DNA of 64,000 nucleotides. It comes from Lineus longissimus (Eukaryota > Nemertea > Pilidiophora > Heteronemertea > Lineidae). Location of the stretch: contig NC_088326.1 of the NCBI RefSeq assembly GCF_910592395.1, positions 7,757,001 through 7,821,000 on the forward strand, written 5' to 3'. Shown here piece after piece: positions 5,560-62,654 of this stretch (the first letter of the stretch is position 1; each line of letters starts with the position of its first letter). The notes below the pieces were generated by a model. That model had not been told where the DNA came from and did no database searches. It saw only the letters and a program-made list of their open reading frames with translations. The position numbers were made by a program, and so were the translations under genes.

Positions 5560-6530
5560 AAAAAAGGTACAGGAAAAAAAGGTACAGGAAAATAAGGTAC
5601 GGAAATAAAGGTACAGGGAAATAAAAGTACAGGAAATAAAAGTACTGGAAAAAAGGTACAGGAAAAAAAGGTACACAAAATGGCAAAAATAGGTACAAAA
5701 GGTACACAATTTTTAAAAAGAATATTATTCTCTTCAACTGGTTCAGACTCGGCCTATGTCTTAATCTTTTCTTGCCAATTTTTCTTCTTCTGTGACTAAG
5801 GTGGTGCCTTAAAATAATTTAATACATTGCGGACAATTTTGTTACGGAATGAATTTGAGGAAAATTCATGGAAGAAGTTGCCCAACAGGGGAGCTGACGT
5901 TTTTTTTGGTAATAACTACATTCATGTTATTTTAAATTTCAAAATTATCGAGTCGTATTCTTGTTAGGGAGGATCCAGGATCTTGGGAAGGGGGGGGGGG
6001 GCGCACCAAGCATCCTACCTGGCATTTCACATTAAGATTCTCGCCAATTTCCCTAAATAGCTTGTGTTTGGTCATGAATCTAATAATTTGCCTGTTAAGA
6101 CCTATTGGCCAGGCACGTAGCTAATTTATCATTTAGCATTTAGCATGTATCAGTTAACCCTTTTGCAGAGGGAATTGTCCTAGAATCTTTACAATCATCA
6201 TGATCTTGATAGCCGTGTTTTCACTATTGAAAACCATAACGGTATACTGGAAATTTGATATACCTATTTCTAAGGCCTATGCAATGCCTACGCAACAAAT
6301 AAAGTTAAAGTTATGAATAGAAAAAAAGAGAATTCAAATGATATTTTTTTTAAATGTGTACCTTTTTTACCTATTTATGCCATTTTGTGTACCTATTTTT
6401 CCAGTACCTTTTTATCCAGTACCTTTATATCCGGTACTTTTATATCCTGTACCTTTATTTCCTGTACCTTTATTTCCGTACCTTTTTTTCCTGTACCTTT
6501 TTTCCTGTACCTTTATTACCTAGACTCCTG
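5560..6530. mobile_element. Foldback element with minisatellite arms (GGTACAGGAAA type)
   Basis: The left arm (about 5560-5740) is a run of ~14-16 bp units reading ggtacaggaaataaa. The right arm (about 6310-6525) is the same run reverse complemented. Outside the repeat units both arms share tgtgtacc-aaaatggc and the AT-rich stretch next to it, so they are one inverted pair rather than two unrelated microsatellites. The interior (5741-6309) is unique and non-coding and includes a poly-G run near 5991. A relative lies at 51045-52310. Confidence 0.7.
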
Positions 6531-6639
6531 ATCTACAGCTGCCGAGAGAAAGGCTATATTTCTGTTGTTTTTAATGTGAAAAGTTTTTTTGAACTAATCT
6601 TTTTTTGATAACAGTGAATTTTGGAGAGCGGTAAAAAAG

Positions 6640-8935
6640 TCGAAGGTTCAGACAAAGTCCTTCCGAACTACATGGATGATAAAAGGGCAGGGAAGCTAGT
6701 TGTGAACTGTTTGGTAATCTATTTAAGAGGTTATATAATTCCGTTTTATACGATGTTAATGAAGTGAATGATTTGAAAGGAGATATCAATGTTGACATTG
6801 CTAGACACTGTACTATCGATGGAAAGTGCAGTGAAAATTATAGTATATCAGTGCAGGAAGTTGAGAGTGGGGAACCGCGGTTAAAACGAGGAAAAAATGA
6901 AAGTAATCCGAAGTTAGCGTCTAATCGTTTTATAAATGGAGGGCATAGGTTAAATGTGTACATCTCTCTTTTTCTAAGCTCTTTGATGAGTCATGGGTAA
7001 TGTACGGGTGGCTTTGCTCAATCTAGGGTATTACCTATTCCTAAAATCAACAGAAAGTTGCTAAATGCATTGGATAACTATCGTGGAATCTCCTTAAGCA
7101 GCATTATTGGTAAAGTTATGGAGAATATTATCCTAAACAAGTACAAAAACGTATGCAAAACGTCTGATGCCCAGTTTGGTTTCAAGCATGGTATCTCCAC
7201 GGCGTCGTGTAGAACGGAAGTTAACGAAGTTATGAACTATTCAATGCCGCTAAAAGTAAGCTGTTGGTGTTCGGCCTTCAGAATGTTGGGCTTATTAGGG
7301 TATTTTTCAGTGGTAATGTTTTAACACCCAACAAAAGTGAGCTACACTTGGGAATTTCGTTTGGGCCGGATTCCGGCCGGGTTCGGATACGGTCTAGTAT
7401 CAATGACCTGTACGCTAGGAGCAATCTTCTTCTTTGTCAGTTTTATCATGCCAGCACTGATGTCAAGTATGCACTGTTCAAGACTTATTGTATGTCACTT
7501 TACGGATGCCAAATTAATGGTAAATGGGAGTGGCTCGCCTCTCAGCAATAGTTTAAATTACATCAGTAGGGTTGCCAATAAGTCCAAATTTGAGCTAGTT
7601 AAAGCTGGCATCAGCATTGGACTTTTAAATGACGCTGAAAATGACGGCAATGTAAATTGGTGCTCAAATTAGAGAGTTAATTTCCATGCGGGATTATGGA
7701 CACCCCTTATTATCCAAGGACGAGATTTCGGATATGATAGAATTTCTTTGCGTTTCATAGCTGTACCCTGGATTCATGTGATTTTTATTTTTTCCCAGCG
7801 GAGAAGACACAAAATGTAACAATTGTCAGTTGAATTGTAAATTTTTGCACCATGTAATCTAAGCACTGCACTGTCATCAAGTGTATCTGATTTTGTAATC
7901 TTATACGAATAAACATATATACATATATATATATTACAACAGTTATAACAGTGCGGTGTATTGTGTAATGCTTGACGCCAGTCACGCTTTTGATTGCGTC
8001 CATTTCATTAAACTATTTGTCTATTGATAAAGAAAGGGTTGTGTCCATTAGCGGCAAGGTTTGCAGCAAATCTTTATAACCTAGAGCGTGTTAAAGTTCA
8101 GTGGAGAGAGCACATATCGTTTGAGTTTTTGGTTACATGTACTAATGGCGTCAAACAGGGAGGGGTTTTATCTCCAATTCTTTTTGGAATATACCTTGAT
8201 GACTTTCGGACGGTTTAAAAAAAGCTGCCATGTAGGCACTTTTTTGCGGCTCTTTCGCCTATGCCGATGATATAATCCTGCTGTCTCTAACCTTATTTGG
8301 GTTAAAGGCAATGCTTAAAATTACAAGTAAATTTTCTATCGAATCATGCATATCTTTCAAGGCGTCAAAAAGCAGGTTCTTGTTGTTTGGATCGCAGGAT
8401 CCATCACGGGAAATTTTATTTGAGGGGACAAGGGTTGGCATTTCTACCAGGAAAGATCATCTTGGGATAATAGGGAGTTTTCGCAAATTCCTCGAAACGC
8501 CAACGCGAACGCCTATCGCATTGTTTGACCTCCTGATAACGAAGTCGAACAATGGAGTAGGCGTTCACGTGGATGTTTCCTTATTAATATTTCCGAACGT
8601 GCATCGTCGGAGAGTGTTGATCATGATTAATGATTTTTTGAAAGGGCTAATATGCTAGGTTTATTTCGGGAATGAATATGTCTAAGAATGTGTATGTTAG
8701 ATTATGTTTCACCAGTCCTCATTGGGTAGAAGTTTCAGTTGGCTTTTTACAAATATTGCTGAGAGAGGGATCACATACCAAATACTGAGGACATGCTTAG
8801 AGAAATTAACATGGTAAATAATAGACATAGACAAAACACGATTGCTGAACAGATTAGTGAACTTTTGAGGATGCGAGACTTTGGGAATGGAACGTCTAAT
8901 TACGGGGAATTAACTGAAATTATAAATGTCTAATG
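6640..8935 (+). mobile_element. Decayed non-LTR retrotransposon (CR1/L2-like group), rearranged
   Basis: Several frames encode pieces of a LINE reverse transcriptase. At 7022-7245 the entry part of the RT domain reads RVLPIPKI and, 14 codons later, NYRGISLSSI, then AQFGFKHGIST. At 7257-7550 the post-catalytic part appears (SKLLVFG, LHLGISFG, YALFKTYCMSLYGCQI). The missing centre comes only later, at about 7945-8300: a motif A piece MLDASHAFDCV, then NGVKQGGVLSPILFGIYLDD and a broken ADD region. A C-terminal tail is at 8794-8934. So the copy carries an internal deletion plus a displaced segment. Frameshifts and stops are many; it is inactive. The clade assignment is by overall look only. Confidence 0.75.
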
Positions 8936-8939
8936 TGCG

Positions 8940-10460
8940 TCCAATTGATGAACATGTGCCATGATCAAGTTTATTATTTAGGCCTCTAGGCCTGTATCTA
9001 AATACAGTATTTCACGTTGCGCCACGCACACAATTTTTGTAACGCACCAGTTTAGTAAATCTGTAGAATCTGTTGTACGATATAAGCAAAAAACATATTC
9101 CTGCCTCCTTGCGGTACACTGGTTCTATGAAGCAGACGACATGATATCGAATTCGCTACCGACACATTTTCTCTTTTTAGCTACGCTGGCTTCCAGCGGA
9201 GCTTATGGTTTGTACTGGAGCTGGCCGAAAGTAGTTCCAGCAAAATAGTTGCATTTTCATCCGTATTTGCTGTAGCTGGGCCAGAAAATGTGCCAGGATA
9301 CATATATTTTGAACTCTTGTTTCGATAGGATTATAGCTATTCACAGCAGAAAGACTAAACGCCACGTAATTGGCAGTAATTGGCAGTTATAAGCTGGAAA
9401 TTGTCGTCTGGTCAAAAGCCGCAAAACGGCCTCGATCCTACCTCTGTAATGTACTGAACGCGCTACACACAAGTCATTGCCCTAATGCATTGCAGCCGAG
9501 GCTGATTAAGTGATGGCCGTTTTGCGAATGTATACAGAGTGTGTACGTTCACTTCAAAACATAGTTCCAATCTAAATTGTTCATAATGAGCAGTTAGAAA
9601 GTGGTATTTCCCTATATTTTGATTCTCAATGTGACCATGTCGTTTTGTGGGGTTATTTTGTCTAATTCTTATTAATATTGCTGATAAAAGACACGTAGAG
9701 AAACCCAGATTCATGCGCTCAGTTCATCTACGTTCGGTAGACCGTAGACGTTTTGACAGAAAATCCAGGGTGAGTTTTCTCTGTATTTTCTCTTGATGTG
9801 CTAGGTACAATTGGCCCTGACAACTGTTATTTGAAAAGTCTTAGTATTATAGAATGACTCCCGTAGCTTGTTTACAAAGGAAGTGTGACCGTTTTTGGCT
9901 TTCTGTCTCGTTAAATTTGCTCAGTCATTGAGTCGAAGTCGAAGATCAAAACACACATAAACGCCATAGTACATTTTATTCACAAAACGGTGTTGCAAAA
10001 AAATTCTTCCCAATCATCAGAATGAAATAATCGTAATACTTCACAATTGTCTACTACACATAAATAAACCAACTACAGGAGAATGATTTTGAAATCCAGA
10101 CAAAACTTTGTTATAAGAATAGCCTCTTTGTATTTATAAAAATCATCGACGTAATCAAAACAAAAAACCCGAACGCTAGATGAACAAACATGGCGGACCG
10201 CTTCACAATAAGTTGACGTTTTCTCATGTTTCTTGTCGAAATAACAATGATATCGTACACCTTTGATATTCACACTGGTCAGAGTACACAAATATTAGCG
10301 ATGAAGTAGTCTGCTGGAATTGCGAGGTATTTTTAACAAACAATAAAACTGCCATTCTCAGTCTATGCTGATACGGAAAACCGTGAGGAGCTGCATGAAC
10401 TGGGCCTACATTATTTACCATACATTACAGTTACATACCCGATACCGGTACATGAACGCA
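8940..10460. other. No gene seen
   Basis: No convincing coding region is visible. A segment at 10330-10430 resembles the reverse complement of 11270-11370 (cctcacggttttccgtatca against ctcacggttttcgcgtatca), so the MITE at 10468-11099 sits between two inverted copies of something unrecognised. Confidence 0.45.
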
Positions 10461-33835: not shown

Positions 33836-34134
33836 CTGAGTGTGACCAGTCTAAAGATGGAAGATTTGGAACCAATTTTCTGCTAAAAAGAAGTCAAGTA
33901 GGCGATATTATCACTAGTTCCTTTCAGTGGGTAGTCATAAGGTCTTTAGGGACTACTTTCAGAAATTAGTTCTTGAAAATTTGGCCACAATTCTGTGAAA
34001 ACGATGTTAGAAGTGCACGCTCTGTTCGCGAATTATTTTGAAGTGGAGAATTCCCACAGTATGTGCATTGAATCGGCATGATTCTGTTTGCAATTTAGTT
34101 TTTAGTACTACGATTCTTACATGAGTAATGAAAC

Positions 34135-34990
34135 GGCCAGGGCCATTGTGCTCACCGTATAGATAGTTGGTGCTTTGGAATTCATCCAGGTTAAGAAACA
34201 TTGTACATGCATAGTATATAGGTCAAACCAAAGTCGGTATGATGTGTGATGTATCGTTGCTTGGAGTAAGTACCATAAGATATTATCAAAAACAAGTCAC
34301 TAATAAACGAGATATTGCACTTTTTACATATTTTAGTTTTGGCCTCCTGGTGGCCAAGTTGAGTACCAGATCAGATCGAAATTCGGTGTCCGAGGTTACA
34401 TGATGTAGGGAGTCATGTGTACCAAATTTCAAGTTCATAGCTTTAGTGGTTAAGAAACGTGCCATAGTTACAATCAAATGACCAATTTACGCCATTTGAC
34501 CTCTGTGACCTAGAAAAGCAGGTCAGATCAAAAACTCATCGATTATTTGATGTATCCTTGCTAGGAGAACCTACCGTAAAAAGGTTATTGAAAACGAATC
34601 ACTAACAAGCGAGATATCACACTTTCTAGGTTTTCACTTTTGGCCCCCTGGTGGCCAAGTCGAGAATCAGACCGGACTGAAATTCAGGGTATGTGGTCAA
34701 CTGACCTGGAGGGTCCTTTGTACAAAGTCTCAAGTTCATAGCCTTAACAAACGTTCCACAGTTACGCTCGAATGGCCAATTTACGCCATTTGACCTCTGT
34801 GACCTTGTAAGTACGTCAAATCAAAAACCCGTATCATATGTGATGTATCCTTGATAAGAGTATCTACCATAAATTTTTTACCAAAAACTAATCAGTAATA
34901 AGCGAGATATGGCACTATTCAAATTTTTGGTTTTGGCCCCCTGGTGGCCAAGTTAAGAATCAGACCGGACCGAAAATCAGTGTCGGAGGT
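34135..34990 (-). repeat. ~290 bp-unit repeat block, inverted partner of 44090-45265
   Basis: The block is the reverse complement of 44090-45265, down to its edge: ccgtatagatagttggtgct here against ccaaatatctatacggtgag near 45208. It has about three internal units, each with tttgacctctgtgacct, tgatgtatccttgc and ggccccctggtggccaag. Non-coding. Confidence 0.8.
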
Positions 34991-35849
34991 TAATCTTGTT
35001 AAATAATCAACAAAACTTAGCGTTCAGCTTCCAAAGCTGCGTCCAGGTTTTACCAACTACCACGCAGCGCACAAGTACTGGCGCGAAAGACCTTTTCCGC
35101 CACGTGAGTGCTCGCCGAGATCGGATCGAGTTCACGTCAACCCGCTATTAAGACGCAACGACGTCATCTCCATTTATCGTCGGAGTTGCGGGCATCACCG
35201 TGAAGTCGGAAAAATCGGTATCAGCACCAAGCCGTCACTGGTAAGATCTATGGCTCCAGGACGCGTCTTACTAGTGTATCCTTCCACGTGGAAAAGGTCG
35301 ACGCAGGGAGAGCTAATTCTGGTGGAATCGGAGTCAACGTCGGAAAAGCGTGATAATTCTGTCAGGTTTTGAATTTTTCCATTGGTCCTTTAAAGTTGAT
35401 TGAATCATGATCCAGGACCAGAATATAGAGATTAACATTGAAAACATCAAGCACCCCCCCCCCCCCGCAATAGTTGGTCGTTGGAAGCACTGGACCTCCC
35501 AACAAGATGATAATCGAAAGCATACAGCCAAATGAATCGAGGAATGATTTATGGTCAACAAAGTAAGTGTTTTGGAGTGGCGCCAAGCCAAAGACCGGAC
35601 CTGAACGCTATAAACATTTATGGAAGAAACTAAAGAAAAAGGTCCTTGCCAGGACCTGGAGAAGTCAGCCAAAGAGAAGTGTGCCGAAATCCCATTGGAC
35701 ACGTGTAAAACCTTTGTGATAAACTACAAGAAGCATTTGGGGGCGGTAATTACAAATAAAGACGTTGCCATTGATTCCAGTAAAAATATGAACAATTCTG
35801 GACGTGAGATATTTTGTAAATCTGTCAAATAAAGTACCAAAAAGTATTG

Positions 35850-44089: not shown

Positions 44090-45265
44090 TTGACACTAAA
44101 TTTCGGTCCGGTCTGATTCTTGACTAGGCCACTAGGGGGCCAAAACTGAAAACATAAATAGTGTGATATCTCACTTATTACTGATAAGTTTTTGGTAAAA
44201 AATTTATGGTAGGTACTCTTAGCAACGATACATCACATAATGATACGGGTTTTTGATTTGACGTACTTGTCAAGGTCACAGAGGTCAAATGGCGTAAATT
44301 GGCCATTTGAGCGTAACTGTGGCACGTTTCTTTACCAATAATGCTATGAACTTGAAATTTAATACACATGACTCCCTACATCACATAACCTCTGACACCG
44401 AATTTCGGTCTGATCTGATTCTCGACTTGGCCACCAGGGGGCCAAAACTAAAAAAAGTAAAAAGTGCAATAGTGACTTGTTTTCAATTTTTTTTAATGGT
44501 AGGTACTCAGAGCAAGGATACATCACATATCCTACGGGTTTTTGATTTGACCTTATTTTCAAAGTCACAGAGGTCAAATGGTGTGAATTGGTCGTTTGTG
44601 TGTAACTATGGCTTCTTTCTTAACCACTAAAGCTATGAACTTAAAACTTAGTACACATGACCCCCTAGGTCAGATGACCTGTGACACCGATTTTCGGTCC
44701 GGTCTGATACTTAACTTGGCCACGAGGGGACCAAAACCAAAAATTTGAATAGTGCCATATCTCGCTTATTACTGATTAGTTTTTGTTAAAAATTTTATGG
44801 TAGATACTCTTAGCAAGGATACATCACATATGATACGGGTTTTTGATTTGACGTTCTTGTCAAGGTCACAGAGGTCAAATGGCGTAAATTGGCCATTCGA
44901 GCGTAACTGTGGAAAGTTTGTTAACCCCTAAGGCTATGAACTTGAGACTTTGTACAAAGGACGCCCTAGGTCAGCTGGCCTCTGACCCTGAATTTCAGTC
45001 CGGTCTGATTCTCGACTTGGCCACCAGGGGGCCAAAAGTGAAAACCTAGAAAGTGTGATATCTCGCTTATTAGTGATTCGTTTTCAATAACATTTTTATG
45101 GTAAGTTCTCCTAGCAAGGATACATCACATGTCACACCGACTTTGGTTTGACCTATATACTATACATGTACAATGTTTCTTAACCTGGATGAATTCCAAA
45201 GCACCAAATATCTATACGGTGAGCACAATGGCCCTGGCCGTTTCATTTAGAATGGCAGCCTCGCC
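44090..45265 (+). repeat. ~290 bp-unit tandem repeat block, inverted partner of 34135-34990
   Basis: About four units, each with tttgatttgac, caaggtcacagaggtcaaat, ggcgtaaattggccatt, gcgtaactgtgg and ggccaccagggggccaaaa. The block ends with the same unique stretch as its partner. The open frames within it repeat with the units and are not genes. Confidence 0.8.
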
Positions 45266-54265: not shown

Positions 54266-54856
54266 AGTCAGCAAGGCTCTACTAGCAGTCAACAAGCCTT
54301 AACTGATAGTGGTATTAAAGCCAAACAAGACCTTGAGGTGCTAGTTGTTACTGGTAAAAGCAAGGATTTCTTAAAGGGTAACTCGTGTAAAATTTCACCA
54401 TATAATGTTTTAGCTGTTTTTGACAAATGACTACGTCAATTTCTCATAAACCGGTAAGGTTTTCGAATCGAAATGCACATTTTCTAGAAATTGATGGTTT
54501 AATCTCGCCCGGACGGTTCGCTTCAATGCCGTTTTCGTTGATGACGTCACAACATGAACATTTTCGCGGTCGCGGTGGTTTACATTCAGCGATTTTATAA
54601 TAAATCTAATCAAAAATGGAAAATTTGAGCGTTACATTTGTGATCAACAATTAAAAACGGACGTATTTCCGCAAAGTTGTAAATCACATCATAGTATCAC
54701 TTTAAATAAACATATCACATTGAATGACTTAGATATTATGACAGAGAAGGAATCTTGAAACACCATAGGATCTACCAGACAAAGATGGCTGCCAGGCTAA
54801 ATGATTCATTGGGTAAGACAATCTCGAAAACTTACACTGAATTAACAAATTAGTTC

Positions 54857-56247
54857 TTGCCAGTTGATGACGCAGATTATCTTTATGAATACTTAAGAAA
54901 TGATGACCTCGTTACCAATGAACTCGATAAGTGGTTAGGGTGGCTGAGTCTTAGGATGGGAGCATTGACCGCTTTGGCACCGTCAACTCTTATCACTTTA
55001 GGACATTGTAATGAGGGTAACCAGAAAAAATCAATTAAGATAAATGGGCCAGGAGACTCCTGTAACACAGCTAGTGACAACCATTGAGAAACCAAAGAAA
55101 CAAAGATCAGAGAAGCAATTAGCGTGGTCACAACAATTAGGTAAAAGATCACAAGAAATTAAGAGGTTAAAAATAGCATCGCAAAGCGTGCATACCCCCT
55201 CAGCCTATTAATGTTGAAGGTGAGATAATGGTGAAATTGGCTTACTGGAGTGGCTAGTTTGCATATGGAAATTAAAATTGTGGAAACCTATTTTGAGGAT
55301 GTGAGCGTGGCGGCCATATTGAATTTCGAATCGCGCTGATTTTCGAAAGGAACCTTCCCCTTACAAAACTGCATTAGGCCTACACTCACTAAAAGTTAAT
55401 TCCATCCTCCCAAGTCGTTCTCCTCGAAATTGACGGAAACCGATTTCAAACACGCCGCCCTGGTGGCCATATTGATAATCGGAACAAGCCCGTTTTCGAA
55501 AGGAACCTTTCGCTAGTCACCCCCAATGAACATACCAAAAATTGAACTAATTATCAAAGCCATTCTCCTCGAAATTGACGGAGACCGATTTCAAGCACGC
55601 CGCCCTAGTGGCCATATTGATAATCAGAACGAGACCGTTTTCGAAAGGAACCTCGCCCTAGTCACCCTCAACGTACATACCAAAAATGCATTTGATCGGA
55701 CGAACGGTTCTCCTCGAAATTGACGGAAACCAATTTCAAACACGCCGCCCTGGTGGCCATATTGATAATCGGAACAAGCCCGTTTTCGAAAGGAACCTTC
55801 CTCTAGTCACCCCCAATGTACATACAAAAAATTTAATTGATTGTCAAAGCTGTTCTTCTTGAAATCGACGGAAACCGAGTAGCAGACGCCCGCCCGCCCG
55901 CCCGGACGGACGGCGCACGTGACGACAATACCCCTCTAGCCCATTTGGACTGAGGGGTAAAAAGGGATACCAGACAACCGGTCGAATCCAACAAGGTTGA
56001 ACCAGAACAAGAACCAGATCGTCAACCCGAACCCGAAACAGAACCTGAACCTGTCTCTAAGACATCATATGGTAACTTAGTAGCTGTGGCAGCAGTTGCT
56101 ATTGTCGCTAGCATTTACTTTATGTTTAAGAAAAAGTTAAAACCTGGAAGACCAGAAAATACTGTTTTTAAAGAGAAGGTTGTAACGGTGCATATCCCTG
56201 TCGTGAAAGAGGTGATTAAGGAATCAAAATTGTTTTTAATGGAGTAG
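54857..56247 (+). pseudogene. Acidic single-span membrane protein, interrupted by a repeat
   Basis: Three open segments seem to belong to one gene. 54857-55040 encodes ADYLYEYLRNDDLVTNELDK and WLGWLSLRMGALTALAPS. After a frameshift, 55049-55209 encodes a basic part (IEKPKKQRSEKQLAWSQQL, GKRSQEIKRLK). A repeat block (55210-55965) follows; then 55972-56247 encodes a Glu/Pro-rich stretch (VEPEQEPDRQPEPETEPEP), one membrane segment (LVAVAAVAIVASIYFMF), a basic anchor and a tail ending in ESKLFLME and TAG. Similar small basic-plus-membrane proteins accompany the polymerase in Polinton-like elements of marine animals; that link is from general recall and is not certain. The ATG is not visible, since a TAG stands just upstream of 54857. 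Confidence 0.5.
55210..55965. repeat. ~140 bp-unit repeat block inserted in the membrane protein gene
   Basis: The stretch ctcctcgaaattgacgga recurs near 55421, 55562, 55709 and (as ttcttgaaatcgacgga) 55855. Each is followed by caaacacgccgccctggtgg-ccatattgataat and cgttttcgaaaggaacct. It ends in a (CCCG)n-like GC-rich stretch at 55890-55915. Confidence 0.75.
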
Positions 56248-56272
56248 TGAGTTACCTTAAGTTTACATTAAG

Positions 56273-56920
56273 TTAAACACATTGTCTACAGTTTCTAGTG
56301 AAAAATGAAAGGTAATCCATTTTCTCACTCCCATTCAAAACATTAACCACACATGGTAAATCCTGTTGGTTTTTAATGAATAAGTTTTCTTGAAGTTTGA
56401 GAATTTTCTTGAGATAATCTAAACTAGTTGATTTTTCTTTTGAACGGTTTCTCTTTTTCATTCTTTCATAACAAACCACTCGATCTCTTCTGAGGTAAAT
56501 TATGAAATTGGGTTTAACGCACATATTTTTGTAGTGTTTGGAATATGCGTCCTCTAGGCTATTAGATTGACAACGAGTTAAATTCCCACCGACCCAACTC
56601 AGGCGTGAAAAGATATGATGAGTGGAGAAAATGCTTCTCTCCACAATTATTGTTTTCCCTTTAACAGAGCACCATCTCTCACTGAATGTTTCCATCGCCA
56701 TCAATTGAAATTCTTCGGAATATTTTTTCGCGTTATTGTACATGAGTTCAAGTAGATTTTTCCCATTATAGTTTCGCCACACCTCGAATGGTTCTGGTAC
56801 TATTACTACGTCTGAGACTTTTTGTTCCAAGCAGAGCTTGCTGTCGCAGCCCTTAGCCGGCGGAGGACAAAAAAAACAACTATACGTGGCGGATATTAAA
56901 AAAAAAAGAATACAATTCAC
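56273..56920 (-). pseudogene. Deoxynucleoside kinase (dNK/TK2/dCK family) lacking its P-loop
   Basis: dNKs phosphorylate deoxynucleosides with ATP to feed DNA synthesis. The 215-codon frame is open throughout. Residues 38-48 give VVIVPEPFEVW (base/sugar-binding Glu and Trp), 51-60 a GKNLLELMY block, 91-98 IIVERSIF (ERS catalytic motif), 137-144 PNFIIYLR and 153-165 the Arg/Lys-rich lid (RMKKRNRSKEKS). At residues 23-33, where the Walker A loop should stand, the sequence reads KGCDSKLCLEQ: the residues on either side of the loop remain, but the Gly-Ser-Gly-Lys centre is missing, as by a short in-frame deletion. So the fold is recognisable but the ATP site is not. Alternatives: assembly error, or a live protein with another role. 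It lies convergent with the membrane protein gene. Confidence 0.75.
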
Positions 56921-57780
56921 AAATCATTTAATTGACATTATATACACATTACACATTACACATTACACATTACTCACGTAAAGGCCTCGCGTGCTAGCTT
57001 TATAATTGAGCGGAAAAATGCGGTATAATGCGGTTAGGCGGCGCAGGATGTTCTTGCGTTAGGTCTCACTAGCCAGTGCAATGGCCGGGCCTACCTGGCT
57101 CCACAAATGGCGCGACGTCATTTCATGCATAGCCCTGTTCAAGTGGCTGTCGACCTTGCAGTATATCACTCTCACACATAAACCTATACATTTCTGAATA
57201 GCTTGTCGCTTCTAGAATACATCTTGCCAGCTTTCATTGTTATCAAGTAATTCAGTCATGAGAACATGGGGGCAGCACAATACATGAGACACCCTGTACA
57301 TCGATGAAAATTTTGAAAATTTCACCTTGCCGCCTTATAACTTGACGATTAACATGGATGGTGAAATAATATTTTTATAAACTTCTACTTATCACCTTGA
57401 GAAAGCCAAATAATAACAATTTTAAATTTTGATACCAAAATAGGGTGTCGTTGCGGCTTTTCTTTGAGCATTTTGACCGCGAAGTCTCACCTTGAGAACA
57501 TGTGCACTCTGACAGGAACCAGTTCATGTCAACATCCGATTGAGCTATAAAAAGCATGCGAGGCCTGGTCACTGCGGACGTGCACAGAAGAAGCTGATAT
57601 TTTCCTCAAATAATCGTCAGAGCTACCTCTTCACAAAATACCCAGGACACCGACATTTGAACATGCAGCAATAGCGATATGATAGGCTTATCTGTATCCA
57701 TGGTAATCGCCTGAGATTGAAGAACTTTTTTTTTACCACTGGCTAGTGAGACCTTAAAGATTCGCCATGTTGTTCAAGTG
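56921..57780. other. No gene seen
   Basis: A short acacatt tandem tract stands at 56943-56975, just upstream of the kinase frame. The rest is unrecognised; I looked here on the minus strand for a separate P-loop exon of the kinase and found none. Confidence 0.4.
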
Positions 57781-57876
57781 AGTTTTCTTGTTGCGACGTC
57801 AAAACGTCGTAACGTCTAAACAATAAAGAAACGCGCAATCCGCGGCCAACAATAAACACAAACTTCGCGTCACGGA

Positions 57877-57909
57877 TGACGTCACATATAATGTCCGTAG
57901 ATGACGTCA
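57877..57909. promoter_or_regulatory. Pair of CRE/ATF-type palindromes
   Basis: TGACGTCA occurs at 57877-57884 and again at 57902-57909, 25 bp apart (start to start), within a locally CpG-richer stretch (57780-58030). This is the consensus site of CREB/ATF bZIP factors. Whether it drives any transcript is unknown; it lies between the kinase and the ORF at 58101-58466. Confidence 0.35.
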
Positions 57910-58100
57910 TAATACTCATAGCGAGTGCGCATGCGTACTTAGTTTCGGACATACCGCCGCGCGGTGTATTGATCATGGACGAATCGTCGCGGCTTCTGAA
58001 CGAGTCGCCCGTATTTGGAACGGATCGGAACACTTGCATTCAATAATTCTGACTTCCCGGAGGCAATGTTACCCTCAATAGCAATTCTAACCATATATTA

Positions 58101-58466
58101 CTAAATAAAGTTTCGATCACTGTAATCAATGTATTTTTCATAATACGTACTGAATGGCATCGTGGAGATTCCATCTTCTGAGATGAATATCTTGTCATCA
58201 AAAAGGACACAGGCTTTTCTTTTCAACCTCCTCCAAATAGATCTGATGCTTTTCTGATCTTAAATATCTCATTTTGTGATCACTTGACTTACTGTTTTCA
58301 AGACAGTCGATGAAGTCATCGAATGAGATATCTCTCTGAACCACGTTCTTGGTAATTCCCTCAGTTTATTTGCTTCTGAATCTTTTGTCATGTAAGCATA
58401 TATTTTGTTCTCAAGGCAATTAATTCTATCATCTCTTCTCCTTCTAACCCGTGTAGTAGAACTCAT
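58101..58466 (-). pseudogene. Unrecognised ORF with two in-frame stops
   Basis: One frame of 122 codons from ATG 58466 to TAG 58101. It is interrupted only by two stops close together (near 58270 and 58258). Before them it encodes an Arg-rich start (RVRRRRDDRINCLENKIYAY) and LRELPRTWFREISHSM; after them IRSIWRRLKRKACVLFDDKI and an EDGISTMPFSTYYEKY tail. The frame survives on both sides of the stops, so this was a real gene. I do not recognise the family. Its position between polymerase and kinase, on the same strand, suggests it belongs to the same element. Confidence 0.45.
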
Positions 58467-58469
58467 ACA

Positions 58470-59434
58470 TCAGAAGCTTAGACAATTCCAAGACTGAAGC
58501 AACAATGTAAATTGCTTTGTCATATCTCTTGGATGTTTTCCTCATGCTAATAGCTGCGTTCTGTTCGTCAAATATCAACGTACTCCCTACTATACAACAG
58601 TAGAGCATTTCACTGTTGTCGATATCGCATTAAACAGTGAACATTCTACTGTGTGTTTGCTTTTGCGCACATTCTCTGCGCAACGAAGAACACCATTATT
58701 GAATATTATATAAATATTGCATGTCAAGCCATAGAATAGTCAAAATTATTTGTCAGGTAAAAAATTATTTCACGAGGCTTTGCGAGTGACCCAAACCACT
58801 GTCAAAGTGATTTTTAATCGGCGGATACGCAAATCATGTATGGAGCCAAGACGTGTACATTATGTACTGTAGACAGTGTGTGTTTTACATTAGCAGACGA
58901 TGTTTGTTTGAAGCGAGTCCAGGCCCAACTTGAATGCCTTGTACTTTCTGTTCGTGGATGTAACAGTCCCACCCAATGCAACCTACCTACTTTGTGGGTG
59001 TAATTCAAGACCATGACAGTATCACTGTGCAACTTCCTGGCTTAAAACGCCGTAAATATGCTGTTTTTTATCGCCGATTTCGCCGAAATCTTAATGGCCG
59101 CCATTAGCAATATCGCGTCATCGATGACGTCAGCCGTGGAATAATGCCGTGGAATAGTCAAAATTATCGCATGGCACGTGGTCGTGAATGACGCGACGTG
59201 ATTGGCTCACATACTAATGAGGTATGATAATCTGGAATATTGTTGAATGACCACGTGTTTTTAATTTGTTCTATATATAGTTTTTGACTGTAGCCGAATA
59301 GACAATTTGAACTTGAAATTTTGACTCTTTTATTTCATTTTAGCAGTGAGGATGGGCGGCAACAGGCGGTATCATTTCCAACAACATGTCACAATAAGAG
59401 ACCTTTTTCCCCTATGTGCCAGGAGTATGAGGGG
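58470..59434. other. No gene seen
   Basis: AT-rich, with a TGACGTCA at about 59127. Nothing was recognised on either strand. Confidence 0.4.
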
Positions 59435-60640
59435 TTGGGACGGTTAGGTCCTCTCATTCCCAGCCGCCAGTCACAATCTGGTAAATTTTTGTCTCAAGTA
59501 TGAATTTTGGCAATGATTATGGGTCGGGGTCCTATCATTCCCAGCCGCGAGTCACAATCTGGTAACTTTCTGTCTCACGTATGAAATTTGGCAGTGATCA
59601 TGGGTCGGGGTCCTATCATTCACAGCCACGAGTCACAATCTGGTAACTTTTTGTCTCACATATAAAGTTTGGCAGTGATCATGGGTCGGGGTCCTATCGT
59701 TCCCAGCCACGAGTCACAATCTGGTAACTTTTTGCCTCACGTATGAAGTTTGGCAGTGATCATGGGTCGGGGTCCTATCATTAACAGCCACGAGTCACAA
59801 TCTGGTAACTTTTTGTCTCACGTATGAAGTTTGGCAGTGATAATGGGTCGGGGTCCTATCATTCACAGCCACGAGTCACAATCTGGTAACTTTTTGTCTC
59901 ACATATGAAGTTTGGCAGTGATCATGGTTCAGGGTCCTATCATTCACAGCCACGAGTCACAATCTGGTAACTTTTTGTCTCACATATGAAGTTTGGCAGT
60001 GATCATGGTTCGGGGTCCTATCATTAACAGCCACGAGTCACAATCTGGTAACTTTTTGTCTTACGTATGAAGTTTGGCGGTGATCATGGGTCGGGGTCCT
60101 ATCATTCACAGCCACGAGTCACAATCTGGTAACTTTTTGTCTCACATATGAAGTTTGGCAGTGATCATGGGTCAGGGTCCTATCATTCCCAGCCACGAGT
60201 CACAATCTGGTAACTTTTTGTCTCACATATGAAGTTTGGCAGTGATCATGGTTCGGGGTCCTATCATTAACAGCCACGAGTCACAATCTGGTAACTTTTT
60301 GTCTCACGTATGAAGTTTGGCAGTGATCATGGGTCGGGGTCCTATCATTCACAGCCACGAGTCACCATCTGATAACTTTTTGTCTCACGTATGAAGTTTG
60401 GCAGTGATCATGGGTCGGGGTCCTATCATTCACAGCCACGAGTCACAATCTGGTAACTTTTTGTCTCACATATAAAGTTTGGCAGTTGTCATGGGTCGGG
60501 GTCCCATCATTCCCAGCCGTAAGTCACAATCAGGTTACTTTTTGTCTCACATATAAAGTTTGGCAGTGATCAGGGGTCAGGGTCCTATCATTCACAGCCA
60601 CGAGTCACAATCTGGTAACTTTTTGTCTCACGTATGGGCC
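59435..60640. repeat. 81 bp minisatellite, about 15 copies
   Basis: The unit contains gtcacaatctggtaactttt, tgtctcacgtatgaagtttg, gcagtgatcatgggtcgggg and tcctatcattcacagccacga. Starts of gtcacaatctgg fall at 59470, 59551, 59632 and onward at 81 bp steps, with almost no length variation. Copies differ by a few substitutions; some variants (gttcggggt, attaacagcc) recur in alternate units, pointing to multi-unit duplication. The array ends sharply at 60638 next to the polymerase remnant. Confidence 0.95.
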
Positions 60641-60734
60641 CACTCATTGTTAGTTCAAGAAGCGGATAATAGACGGCGAAAGCATCTGGTCAACTGTGAA
60701 CTGTCCACTGTGTAAGCGGAAAATGGAGACAGTG

Positions 60735-61775
60735 AAGAGTTCACTGTTTTGTGCGGAGCATGCTCTGCAAATATGCAAATTGAGGAAAACCTAGGATTGG
60801 CCATGAAGCTCCTGGCTCTTTCTCCGTCTGTGACCAATTCAACTTCCATCCTGTTTTACCTTAAAACGAGTTGTTCATCATTTTAAAGCAACCTTTCTCG
60901 AAATCAGTAGTGGCATCCATCCTCCTGTTAGTGTTAAAATCAATGTAGGACGCCAACAACTTTGACTGCTTGAAACTTATCACAGGATAAACCTTCGTAC
61001 CATTCCGTGATTGAGGTAAAACTGTAGCATCCTGTAATGCACTATGTAGTTAGTTTTATCCTTTTAATGTCAATATTAACTTTTCTACATCAGGTCTTTT
61101 CTCGTCACCAAGTAATTCTCTCTGGTTAGGACTCAATTGATTATCGTCGATTGAGAGAGATTCAGGACAGAATGGAAAGTTTTAATTTGAACTTTATGTT
61201 TTCGGGGTAAGCCAAGTCTACATCTAAGAAGTAGCCTACTTCGTTGCGCTTAGGAATTACTTGTATCCAGCTTGACATCGTCCCGAGAGCTTCTGGATCT
61301 TCTTTTGGTTTTATCATCTCAAAACTGCCATAAGGCTGAGGTTCCATCATTGACCAACCGTAGAGATTATTTGCATCAATGTAAAGTAACTTGTGGTGAT
61401 CATCGGCCTTAACGTGTCTTGTTCCCATCACTCCTGAAATACCACCTCTTATTGCCTTTTCAAAAGTAAAATAGAATGTTGCTAGCTGTTAGAAGTTCTA
61501 GGTTTACTCCAGTGTGTTTCAAACCAGGTTGCCAGGTGAAGCCATGTGCTGAGTAACAATGACAAGGATCGATCTGAAAGTAGTTCAAATTGACATCCCT
61601 GAATTTCTCAAACAAATCAGCTAGAAGTAACACAACAGTTTTGAGGTACAGATCAATCAACTCTCCATGATCCTTGAAATTAAAAGGATCCTATATCTTT
61701 TTTGCCTCTTCGTAAGCTGAATCAGGTGCCATTTTATTCTTTAATTCTTCAAAGAACATAGACTTCCCAAAGTAA
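60735..61775 (-). pseudogene. Protein-primed family B DNA polymerase, central fragment
   Basis: In Polintons and related elements this enzyme replicates the element from a terminal protein. Order on the minus strand: 61775-61700 end of the exonuclease region (FFEELKNKM); 61680-61480 LKTVVLLLADLFEKFRD and a QIDPCHCYSAHGFTW stretch; after a frameshift, 61431-61162 KLLYIDANNLYGWSM (polymerase motif A, Asp of DANNLYG) and VGYFLDVDLAYPE; then, with more frameshifts and a stop, a KMMNNSF motif-B-like stretch near 60880 and a final piece ELVTDGERARSF-NPRFSS near 60840-60770. The N-terminal exonuclease and terminal-protein part, and everything after motif B including the YxDTD region, are missing. 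Inactive. Confidence 0.75.
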
Positions 61776-61796
61776 CTAACTTGATAACTTTCATGT

Positions 61797-62349
61797 GATG
61801 TGTAAAAGGAATAAGGATTGGATCCTTTCTTTCTCAATAGTCTGGTTTACCCTGTTTATGACCCTGTTCCAATTCTGTCTGATGACCCTTGGTTTTCCTA
61901 TGAGTTGCCATATTGATGTAAAAAATTTTGAAATGACTAGCATACCTATCTTCTCATATTTTTCTATTTTCTTAAGTATGTTCTTCTTCTTCTGCCAACT
62001 TAGAAACGAGGAAAAAAGTACACTTCCTATGGTTACGTAACACTACCCAAAGCTAAACCTATTTGTGCAGTCATGACTCCAGCTAATGCTGAAATACCAA
62101 CAGAGCCTGCTGTTACACTTACACAATTATGACCGTGGCTAATCCCAGTAATCACGTCAAATGCTTTCTTGTATTTGGAAAAATCTTTCTTCTACATTCA
62201 ATCTTCTCATCCAAGAACTTCTTCACATCGCTGATTTGTTGAAGTCTGAAACCTTTAGGGGAATAGCTGGTCGGGCTATGACTGGTCAGGTTATGACTGG
62301 TCAGATCTGGATAAACCGATTCTCCCGTGTCTATTAAGTTGATGAGCAA
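61797..62349 (-). pseudogene. Membrane-type protein next to the polymerase
   Basis: Three frames. The first (62349-62152) has repeated TSH-type residues (LTSHNLTSHSPTSYSP) and a charged helix (ISDVKKFLDEKIECRRK). The second (about 62170-62045) has a Gly/Ala-rich hydrophobic stretch (AGSVGISALAGVMTAQIGLA). The third (about 62043-61797) has a hydrophobic start, then a basic helix (KKIEKYEKIGMLVISKF). Such a coiled-coil/hydrophobic/basic layout is found in proteins that accompany the polymerase in related elements, but I cannot name it. The right end lies only 118 bp from the transporter exon. Confidence 0.45.
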
Positions 62350-62467: not shown

Positions 62468-62587
62468 TGTTAGGCTTTGACAAGATTCCACTCTACGGAA
62501 CTTTCATCCTTAGTTTTGGCTGTGGCTTGATCACAGGCCTCGTTGTGTTCTTTGCAGTCGTACCATGGCAGAGAAAACACATCACAG
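62468..62587 (+). CDS. SLC20A: SLC20/PiT transporter, fifth coding exon
   Basis: Residues 226-265. The split codon with 50792 makes Met, giving MLGFDKIPLYGTFILSFG, then CGLITGLVVFFAVVPWQRKH and IT. The block LGFDK-P-G and the W/R-rich membrane exit (VPWQRK) are typical of PiT proteins before their large cytosolic loop. Acceptor ATTACAG, donor GTAAGG, phase 1. The rest of the gene (loop and C-terminal membrane domain with the second signature) lies outside the window. Confidence 0.92.
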
Positions 62588-62654
62588 GTAAGGGCATGCG
62601 AAAAGTAGACATGTGTGCGGCAAAGGAGAAGTAGGGCCGAACATATTTATTTTT

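Follow-up and report, generated by a model that had tools for sequence, protein, structure and literature searches.

Does the deoxynucleoside kinase (dNK) gene that lies beside polymerase fragments in a 64,000-nucleotide stretch of the Lineus longissimus genome (the window; RefSeq assembly GCF_910592395.1, contig NC_088326.1, positions 7,757,001 to 7,821,000 of the forward strand) belong to a mobile element, or is it a host gene that came to stand there by chance? An earlier note, made from the sequence alone, had placed at 54857–62349 a Polinton-like remnant that seemed to carry a dNK, and this interpretation is supported by the analysis reported here. The locus represents a Polinton (Maverick) in decay. 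Read along the minus strand between 62338 and 56316, it comprises a membrane-protein remnant, pieces of a protein-primed family B polymerase (PolB) and, directly after PolB, the dNK; the dNK open reading frame (ORF) at 56273–56923(-) scores 97.8 bits against PF01712 (cut-off 27). The window copy is dead, since insertions split both PolB and dNK. It is highly probable (about 0.88) that this copy comes from a lineage in which the dNK is a standing gene directly downstream of PolB, where it would serve replication. The dNK belongs regularly to some Polinton lineages and does not stand beside them by chance. The evidence consists of conserved gene order in two lineages (A and B/W), terminal inverted repeats (TIRs) and target site duplications (TSDs) in lineage B, catalytic motifs conserved where lineage A copies are open, low ratios of nonsynonymous to synonymous divergence (dN/dS), and separation from the host dNK.

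Gene Order in Lineage A

The genome (391 Mb, 30 contigs) was scanned for dNK genes. PF01712 gave 110 matches, an A-type dNK query 47 and the window dNK 96, with overlap among the lists. The gene order of lineage A is PolB, a protein of 219 amino acids (aa), dNK, a 386-aa protein, integrase and ATPase. Two copies, L026 on contig C9 and L027 on contig C12, share 99.8% identity across 9.9 kb. Open frames in L026 encode the ATPase (Pox_A32), an rve integrase with a chromodomain, the 386-aa protein, a dNK with a P-loop (PF01712 65.4 bits, compared with 138.5 in L010), the 219-aa protein and a 1229-aa PolB (PF03175, E 8e-17). L027 has the same genes, the 386-aa one with a shorter frame. L039–L042 retain the order completely or for the most part, and L037 and L038 in part.

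A dNK was found downstream of PolB, on the same strand and no more than 8 kb away, at 26 of 33 lineage A PolB loci, and the gap between the two genes is 866–1113 bp in 13 of these; the loci were built from 42 matches and 38 of 967 candidates were scored, so that the counts are lower bounds. With Pfam dNK hits alone the count is 23 of 33 downstream and none upstream, against a mean of 0.053 and a maximum of 2 in 2000 random draws, for which some contig sizes were approximated. Viewed from the kinase side, a listed PolB is present at 26 of 42 lineage A dNK loci, and a packaging-ATPase match lies further downstream at 33 (41 of the 124 ATPase matches, mainly those of higher identity, were used for this count). 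The dNK family is marked by a P-loop, a (D/E)RS motif and an arginine lid. The P-loop, DRS and an arginine-rich lid are kept in six of seven aligned lineage A dNKs (L026, L039, L042, L037, L038, and L040).

Lineage B/W and Its Termini

The window copy belongs to lineage B/W. Among 17 other B/W loci, which are those around high-scoring dNK hits and not a random sample, PolB lies upstream of dNK in 14, with a gap of 89–197 bp in 10 of the 14. A convergent integrase is found downstream of dNK in 10 of the 17 (the L016 gene encodes an rve integrase); PolB, integrase or both are present in 16, and L022 has neither. The closest relatives read are L013, L014, L017, and L018, where PolB and then dNK follow in the order and orientation of the window; their nucleotide identity to it, piece by piece, is ~74–92%. 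L014 additionally has the membrane protein.

It had been proposed in the earlier note to look for intact elements holding polymerase and kinase between the same TIRs, and elements with the dNK between paired TIRs were found. A search with the 151-bp L012 terminus gave 36 matches in the genome. Five inverted pairs bracket a B-type dNK: on C3 (17.8 kb), C10 (25.8 and 23.3 kb), C11 (26.6 kb), and C19 (17.9 kb), the two C10 copies being one duplicated region, 98% identical. Integrase is present inside all five pairs and PolB was read in four (C3, both C10, C11). The termini begin AGTATATG. TSDs were read at C3, C10, and C11, and perfect 6-bp duplications flank three distinct insertion sites: GATACA (C3), TTCTTA (both C10 copies) and CCACTG (C11). 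The TTCTTA shared by the C10 copies indicates one insertion. L023 is a 2.29-kb derivative in which 17-bp TIRs enclose remnants of PolB and dNK, and its flanks match at five of six bases. Some other matches of the L012 terminus have no nearby dNK hit or no partner terminus. No ATPase match was found inside the C3, C10, C11, and C19 elements with a query taken from lineage A.

B elements have, ~160–170 bp inward from their integrase-side end, another copy of the terminal motif in inverted orientation (L010 7224/7384, L012 7538/7695, L016 7497/7657, L020 1084/1241, L025 2262/2430). The two copies agree within L010, L012, L016, and L025, the L025 motif being unlike the others, and the L020 pair differs slightly. 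This end might form a hairpin. Eight W-type dNK copies, each split or with stop codons, are clustered at C16:13.3–14.7 Mb (best piece 62–77% identical to the window dNK). Beside the broken dNK element of L019, an open 639-aa DDE_Tnp_1_7 transposase with a zinc finger is encoded at 6602–8518; we take this family to be of the piggyBac type.

Selection and Descent of the Kinase

Ten pairs of B/W dNKs gave dN/dS values of 0.21–0.49. For the L026 and L039 dNKs, the proportions of nonsynonymous and synonymous differences were 0.27 and 0.79, respectively, with synonymous sites saturated.

Two trees were compared; X_L022 (19 masked stops), P0024, and P0026 were dropped before the second, P0003, P0004, P0018, and P0020 were omitted from both, and no named viral dNKs were included. 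In the second tree the B/W dNKs form a clade (support 100/98) joined by the database sequence P0001 (97/88), and the lineage A clade has P0021 inside it and P0022 beside it (100/99 each). These three database dNKs group with element dNKs in both trees. P0025 joins B/W in the second tree only (83/85), after its first-tree neighbor, P0026, was dropped. The apparent host dNK (L024 on contig C1, four exon-like pieces matching the family) falls in the group that holds the Drosophila dNK (96/90). The kinase thus did not group with the host gene in the dNK tree that the earlier note had called for, and a clade of B, W and host dNKs was rejected (approximately unbiased [AU] test, p 0.009).

How the two lineages came by the gene is a separate question. 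PolB of lineage A is ~26% identical to that of lineage B and 29% to that of L031. There is about an even chance that A and B/W captured a dNK independently, each keeping it because it stood behind PolB and was helpful to replication. The free trees favor this, as they keep A and B/W in distinct clades and place insect, host and other dNKs between them. Two observations count against it: in both lineages the dNK follows PolB in the same orientation, and forcing A, B and W together with P0001, P0021, P0022, and P0025 into a single clade costs 1.27 log-likelihood units and is not rejected (AU p 0.41). We regard as a tentative candidate the history in which the dNK joined the replication module long ago by a single acquisition, ahead of the split between the PolB lineages, and has since been inherited vertically; A and B/W would have retained it behind PolB, and the families that are now abundant would have lost or replaced it.

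The viral collection was scanned with dNKs (window, L026, P0021, P0025, P0001), PolB proteins (L026, L020), and a PolB alignment (A3); no relative was found, and hence no element from outside that has both genes. With few patterns, all of them exact, this is weak evidence of absence.

Polinton Families Without dNK

The kinase is confined to some Polinton lineages, because PolB families without it coexist in the same genome. No dNK lies downstream of any of 100 L020-like PolB matches (60–63% identity), many of which are open over more than 1200 aa, nor at any of 46 other PF03175 PolB loci; the latter were drawn from 85 PF03175 matches after setting aside three of A type, six from C29 and C30, which are small contigs, and 30 extra pieces of listed loci. 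Among B-type PolB matches in the same list, a dNK is downstream in three of six. Intact polymerase copies lacking the kinase, which the earlier note had named as a refuting outcome, are thus numerous, and they belong to other families, no more than 60–63% identical to the B PolB. That one family has about 100 PolB copies, many with long open frames, suggests recent or present activity.

In L045, the one copy of an abundant Polinton family read in this respect, a 219-aa membrane protein, the source of the match to the window remnant, is encoded between PolB and integrase, together with other ORFs on the integrase strand. Searches for the adenain-like cysteine protease (PF00770) gave two matches in the genome, neither at a dNK locus, with a model that is probably insensitive here. 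Two capsid candidates in L015 (ORFs of 331 and 379 aa) had nothing convincing in Pfam or PDB, and the 298-aa ORF behind PolB in L031 matched no Pfam family.

Role of the Kinase and Points Against It

Several observations weigh against a standing, working dNK in these elements. A partner was not found at 7 of the 33 lineage A PolB loci, nor at 3 of the 17 B/W loci. No TIRs or TSDs were detected in lineage A, where the sequence examined stopped short of the element ends, and none were located at the window copy. The L041 dNK, a lineage A copy, is an open frame without a P-loop. Three recent lineage A pairs have dN/dS values of 0.68–1.17 based on few changes, as is expected of decaying insertions, and neutral decay obscures dN/dS in comparisons of decayed copies. 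Many intact Polintons here do without the kinase, so Polinton replication in general does not depend on it.

The position directly behind PolB, the kept motifs and the low dN/dS nevertheless indicate that the dNK probably works and is produced along with the polymerase; its activity and timing are those predicted from the family. The dNK and thymidine kinase genes of large DNA viruses are thought to raise deoxynucleoside triphosphate (dNTP) pools. In an active Polinton the kinase would be made together with PolB as a replication module and would phosphorylate deoxynucleosides to the monophosphates (dNMPs). This supply could raise dNTP pools in non-dividing cells and so let protein-primed copying of an 18–27-kb genome proceed. 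The probable role of the gene, judged from sequence, is thus to provide the dNMPs that the element needs to replicate itself by protein priming.

It is improbable that the product is instead a co-opted nucleotide sensor or decoy, directed for example against the host or a competing virus. Nothing speaks for this directly; the A-type dNKs beyond the close group are only 30–33% identical to L026. The catalytic motifs retained in six of seven aligned lineage A copies and the low dN/dS of B/W argue against it. That the kinase is a host retrocopy or exon-bearing gene lying by chance beside a Polinton remnant is very improbable: animals normally have dNK genes, and one is apparent on C1, yet the element kinase recurs next to PolB in two lineages, lies inside TIRs with TSDs in lineage B, and is separated from the host gene by the rejected clade.

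Architecture of the Window Locus

The features of the locus are listed in Table 1. The dNK ORF as first drawn (56273–56923, 216 aa) has genuine dNK homology and a false start: approximately the first 33 codons are the edge of an inserted repeat, and residues 1–28 match three other places in the genome at 89%. The true start is the ATG at 58094, which runs downward into an intact P-loop, MVRIAIEGNIASGKSELLNA, and lies beyond the 1.2-kb insertion. This insertion, with a repeat like a miniature inverted-repeat transposable element (MITE) nested in it, cuts the gene just past the P-loop, and homology resumes at 56823; the P-loop, (D/E)RS motif and arginine lid are thus all present, the first severed from the rest. 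PolB carries a second insertion, of 2.2 kb, and its stop codons nearly touch the dNK ATG, a few bases apart. Integrase was not found in the window copy itself.

Table 1. Features of the Polinton remnant and its surroundings in the window.
Feature	Position	Strand	Evidence
219-aa membrane protein, remnant	61890..62338	-	tblastn with L045:206-862 ORF, 53% over 103 aa, E 6.5e-25; same gene in L014 at 9073-9519
PolB, middle part, frames broken	60763..61843	-	tblastn to L020, L031, L010 and L026 PolB; 76-83% nucleotide identity to L013, L014, L017, L018
2.2-kb insertion in PolB	58576..60769		CAAATAT at both flanks; 81-bp tandem repeats; L014 uninterrupted at 5792-5796
PolB, C-terminal pieces	58132..58587	-	tblastn with L010_242 and L031 PolB; blastn with L014, L017
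dNK 5' end, ATG 58094, intact P-loop GNIASGKS	58035..58094	-	frames read
~1.2-kb insertion splitting dNK	56824..58034		absent from L013, L014; junctions +/- ~10 bp
Nested MITE-like repeat, inverted ends GGTCTCACTAGCCAGTG, TTA duplication	57062..57753		second copy in L024 at 2144-2840, 79%
Rest of dNK (homology proper)	56316..56823	-	PF01712 E 9.2e-28; 81-92% nucleotide identity, in pieces, to L013, L014, L017, L018
Convergent ORF, one hydrophobic stretch	55954..56247	+	no match in other loci compared; element membership not supported
Conserved element ORF of unassigned family, convergent to dNK	54854..55081	+	69% over 72 aa in L013; weaker in L017, L021
30-codon match to 328-aa ORF after dNK in L015	53472..53561	+	tblastn 73% over 30 aa, E 3.4e-10

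Two membrane-type proteins had been assigned to the element in the earlier note. The one upstream of PolB is a remnant of a Polinton-family gene; the other, convergent to the dNK, exists as described, with 25 bp between the stops, and there is no support for counting it as part of the element. An ORF noted at 54.9–55.2 kb does belong to the element and makes better sense on the plus strand: the antisense reading 54883–55158(-) was tried as a query and dropped for the plus-strand ORF, which recurs in L013, L017, and L021. A 33% relative of the L015 328-aa ORF follows PolB in L029–L036.

The proposal that all these genes lie in one host intron was not established, the exon-like frame at 62470–62588 having no Pfam match. 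This frame is open (LGFDKIPLYGTFILSFGCGLITGLVVFFAVVPWQRKHIT) with splice-like borders, and bears an unconfirmed likeness to a phosphate transporter exon. Tandem repeats lie inside the remnant at 55417–55895 (145-bp units) and 59366–60640 (81-bp units). Elsewhere in the window, large inverted repeats at 34127–34992 and 44386–45247, up to 93% identical, are akin to repeats that adjoin the B elements of L010 and L016.

Comparison With Known Systems

No Polinton dNK was described by title or abstract in the literature found, a provisional result, as subscription papers and repeat databases were not covered. In the available portions of six papers (PMC8097293, PMC4028283, PMC4642659, PMC7805220, PMC11071308, PMC9004415) the word kinase is absent by term look-up, and in the parts seen of three others the kinase passages concern not Polintons but Megavirales and phages (PMC4981718), algal viruses (PMC4602308) and a herpesvirus-derived transposon (PMC5601938). 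The Polinton gene sets in the sections of the literature examined thus include no nucleotide metabolism.

Vertebrate Mavericks, as far as the accessible text describes them (PMC8097293), share with the elements reported here a protein-primed PolB, an RVE integrase and mostly degraded copies, as well as an ATPase (here in lineage A) and AG-starting TIRs with 6-bp TSDs (here in lineage B). They differ in the dNK, which is present in the elements described here. The dNKs of large DNA viruses, such as algal viruses (PMC4602308, in part), and animal dNKs of PF01712 are of the same enzyme family and have the motifs of the element dNK. The viruses that carry them are far larger than these elements, and the element dNKs form clades apart from host and insect dNKs.

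In Teratorn, an integrated herpesvirus, the absence of thymidine kinase and dUTPase has been read, in the passage available, as a sign that these genes are unneeded after endogenization (PMC5601938). A dNK under purifying selection behind PolB suggests the reverse for some animal Polintons, namely that they continue to replicate in settings short of dNTPs, like autonomous viruses. The idea of a productive phase in resting cells thereby becomes testable. The genome also provides a clear case of a virus-type gene gained or lost among coexisting Polinton families.

Bidnaviruses are a further point of comparison. According to the portion of text consulted (PMC11071296), some of their segments carry thymidine-kinase-like (Tkoid) genes, so that, as in the elements reported here, a Polinton/adintovirus-type PolB and a nucleoside kinase occur in one virus group. 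Bidnaviruses have a parvovirus-type helicase and capsid, some are segmented, and their kinase is on segments with a Cah-protease gene, whereas the Lineus elements have an RVE integrase and carry the kinase beside PolB.

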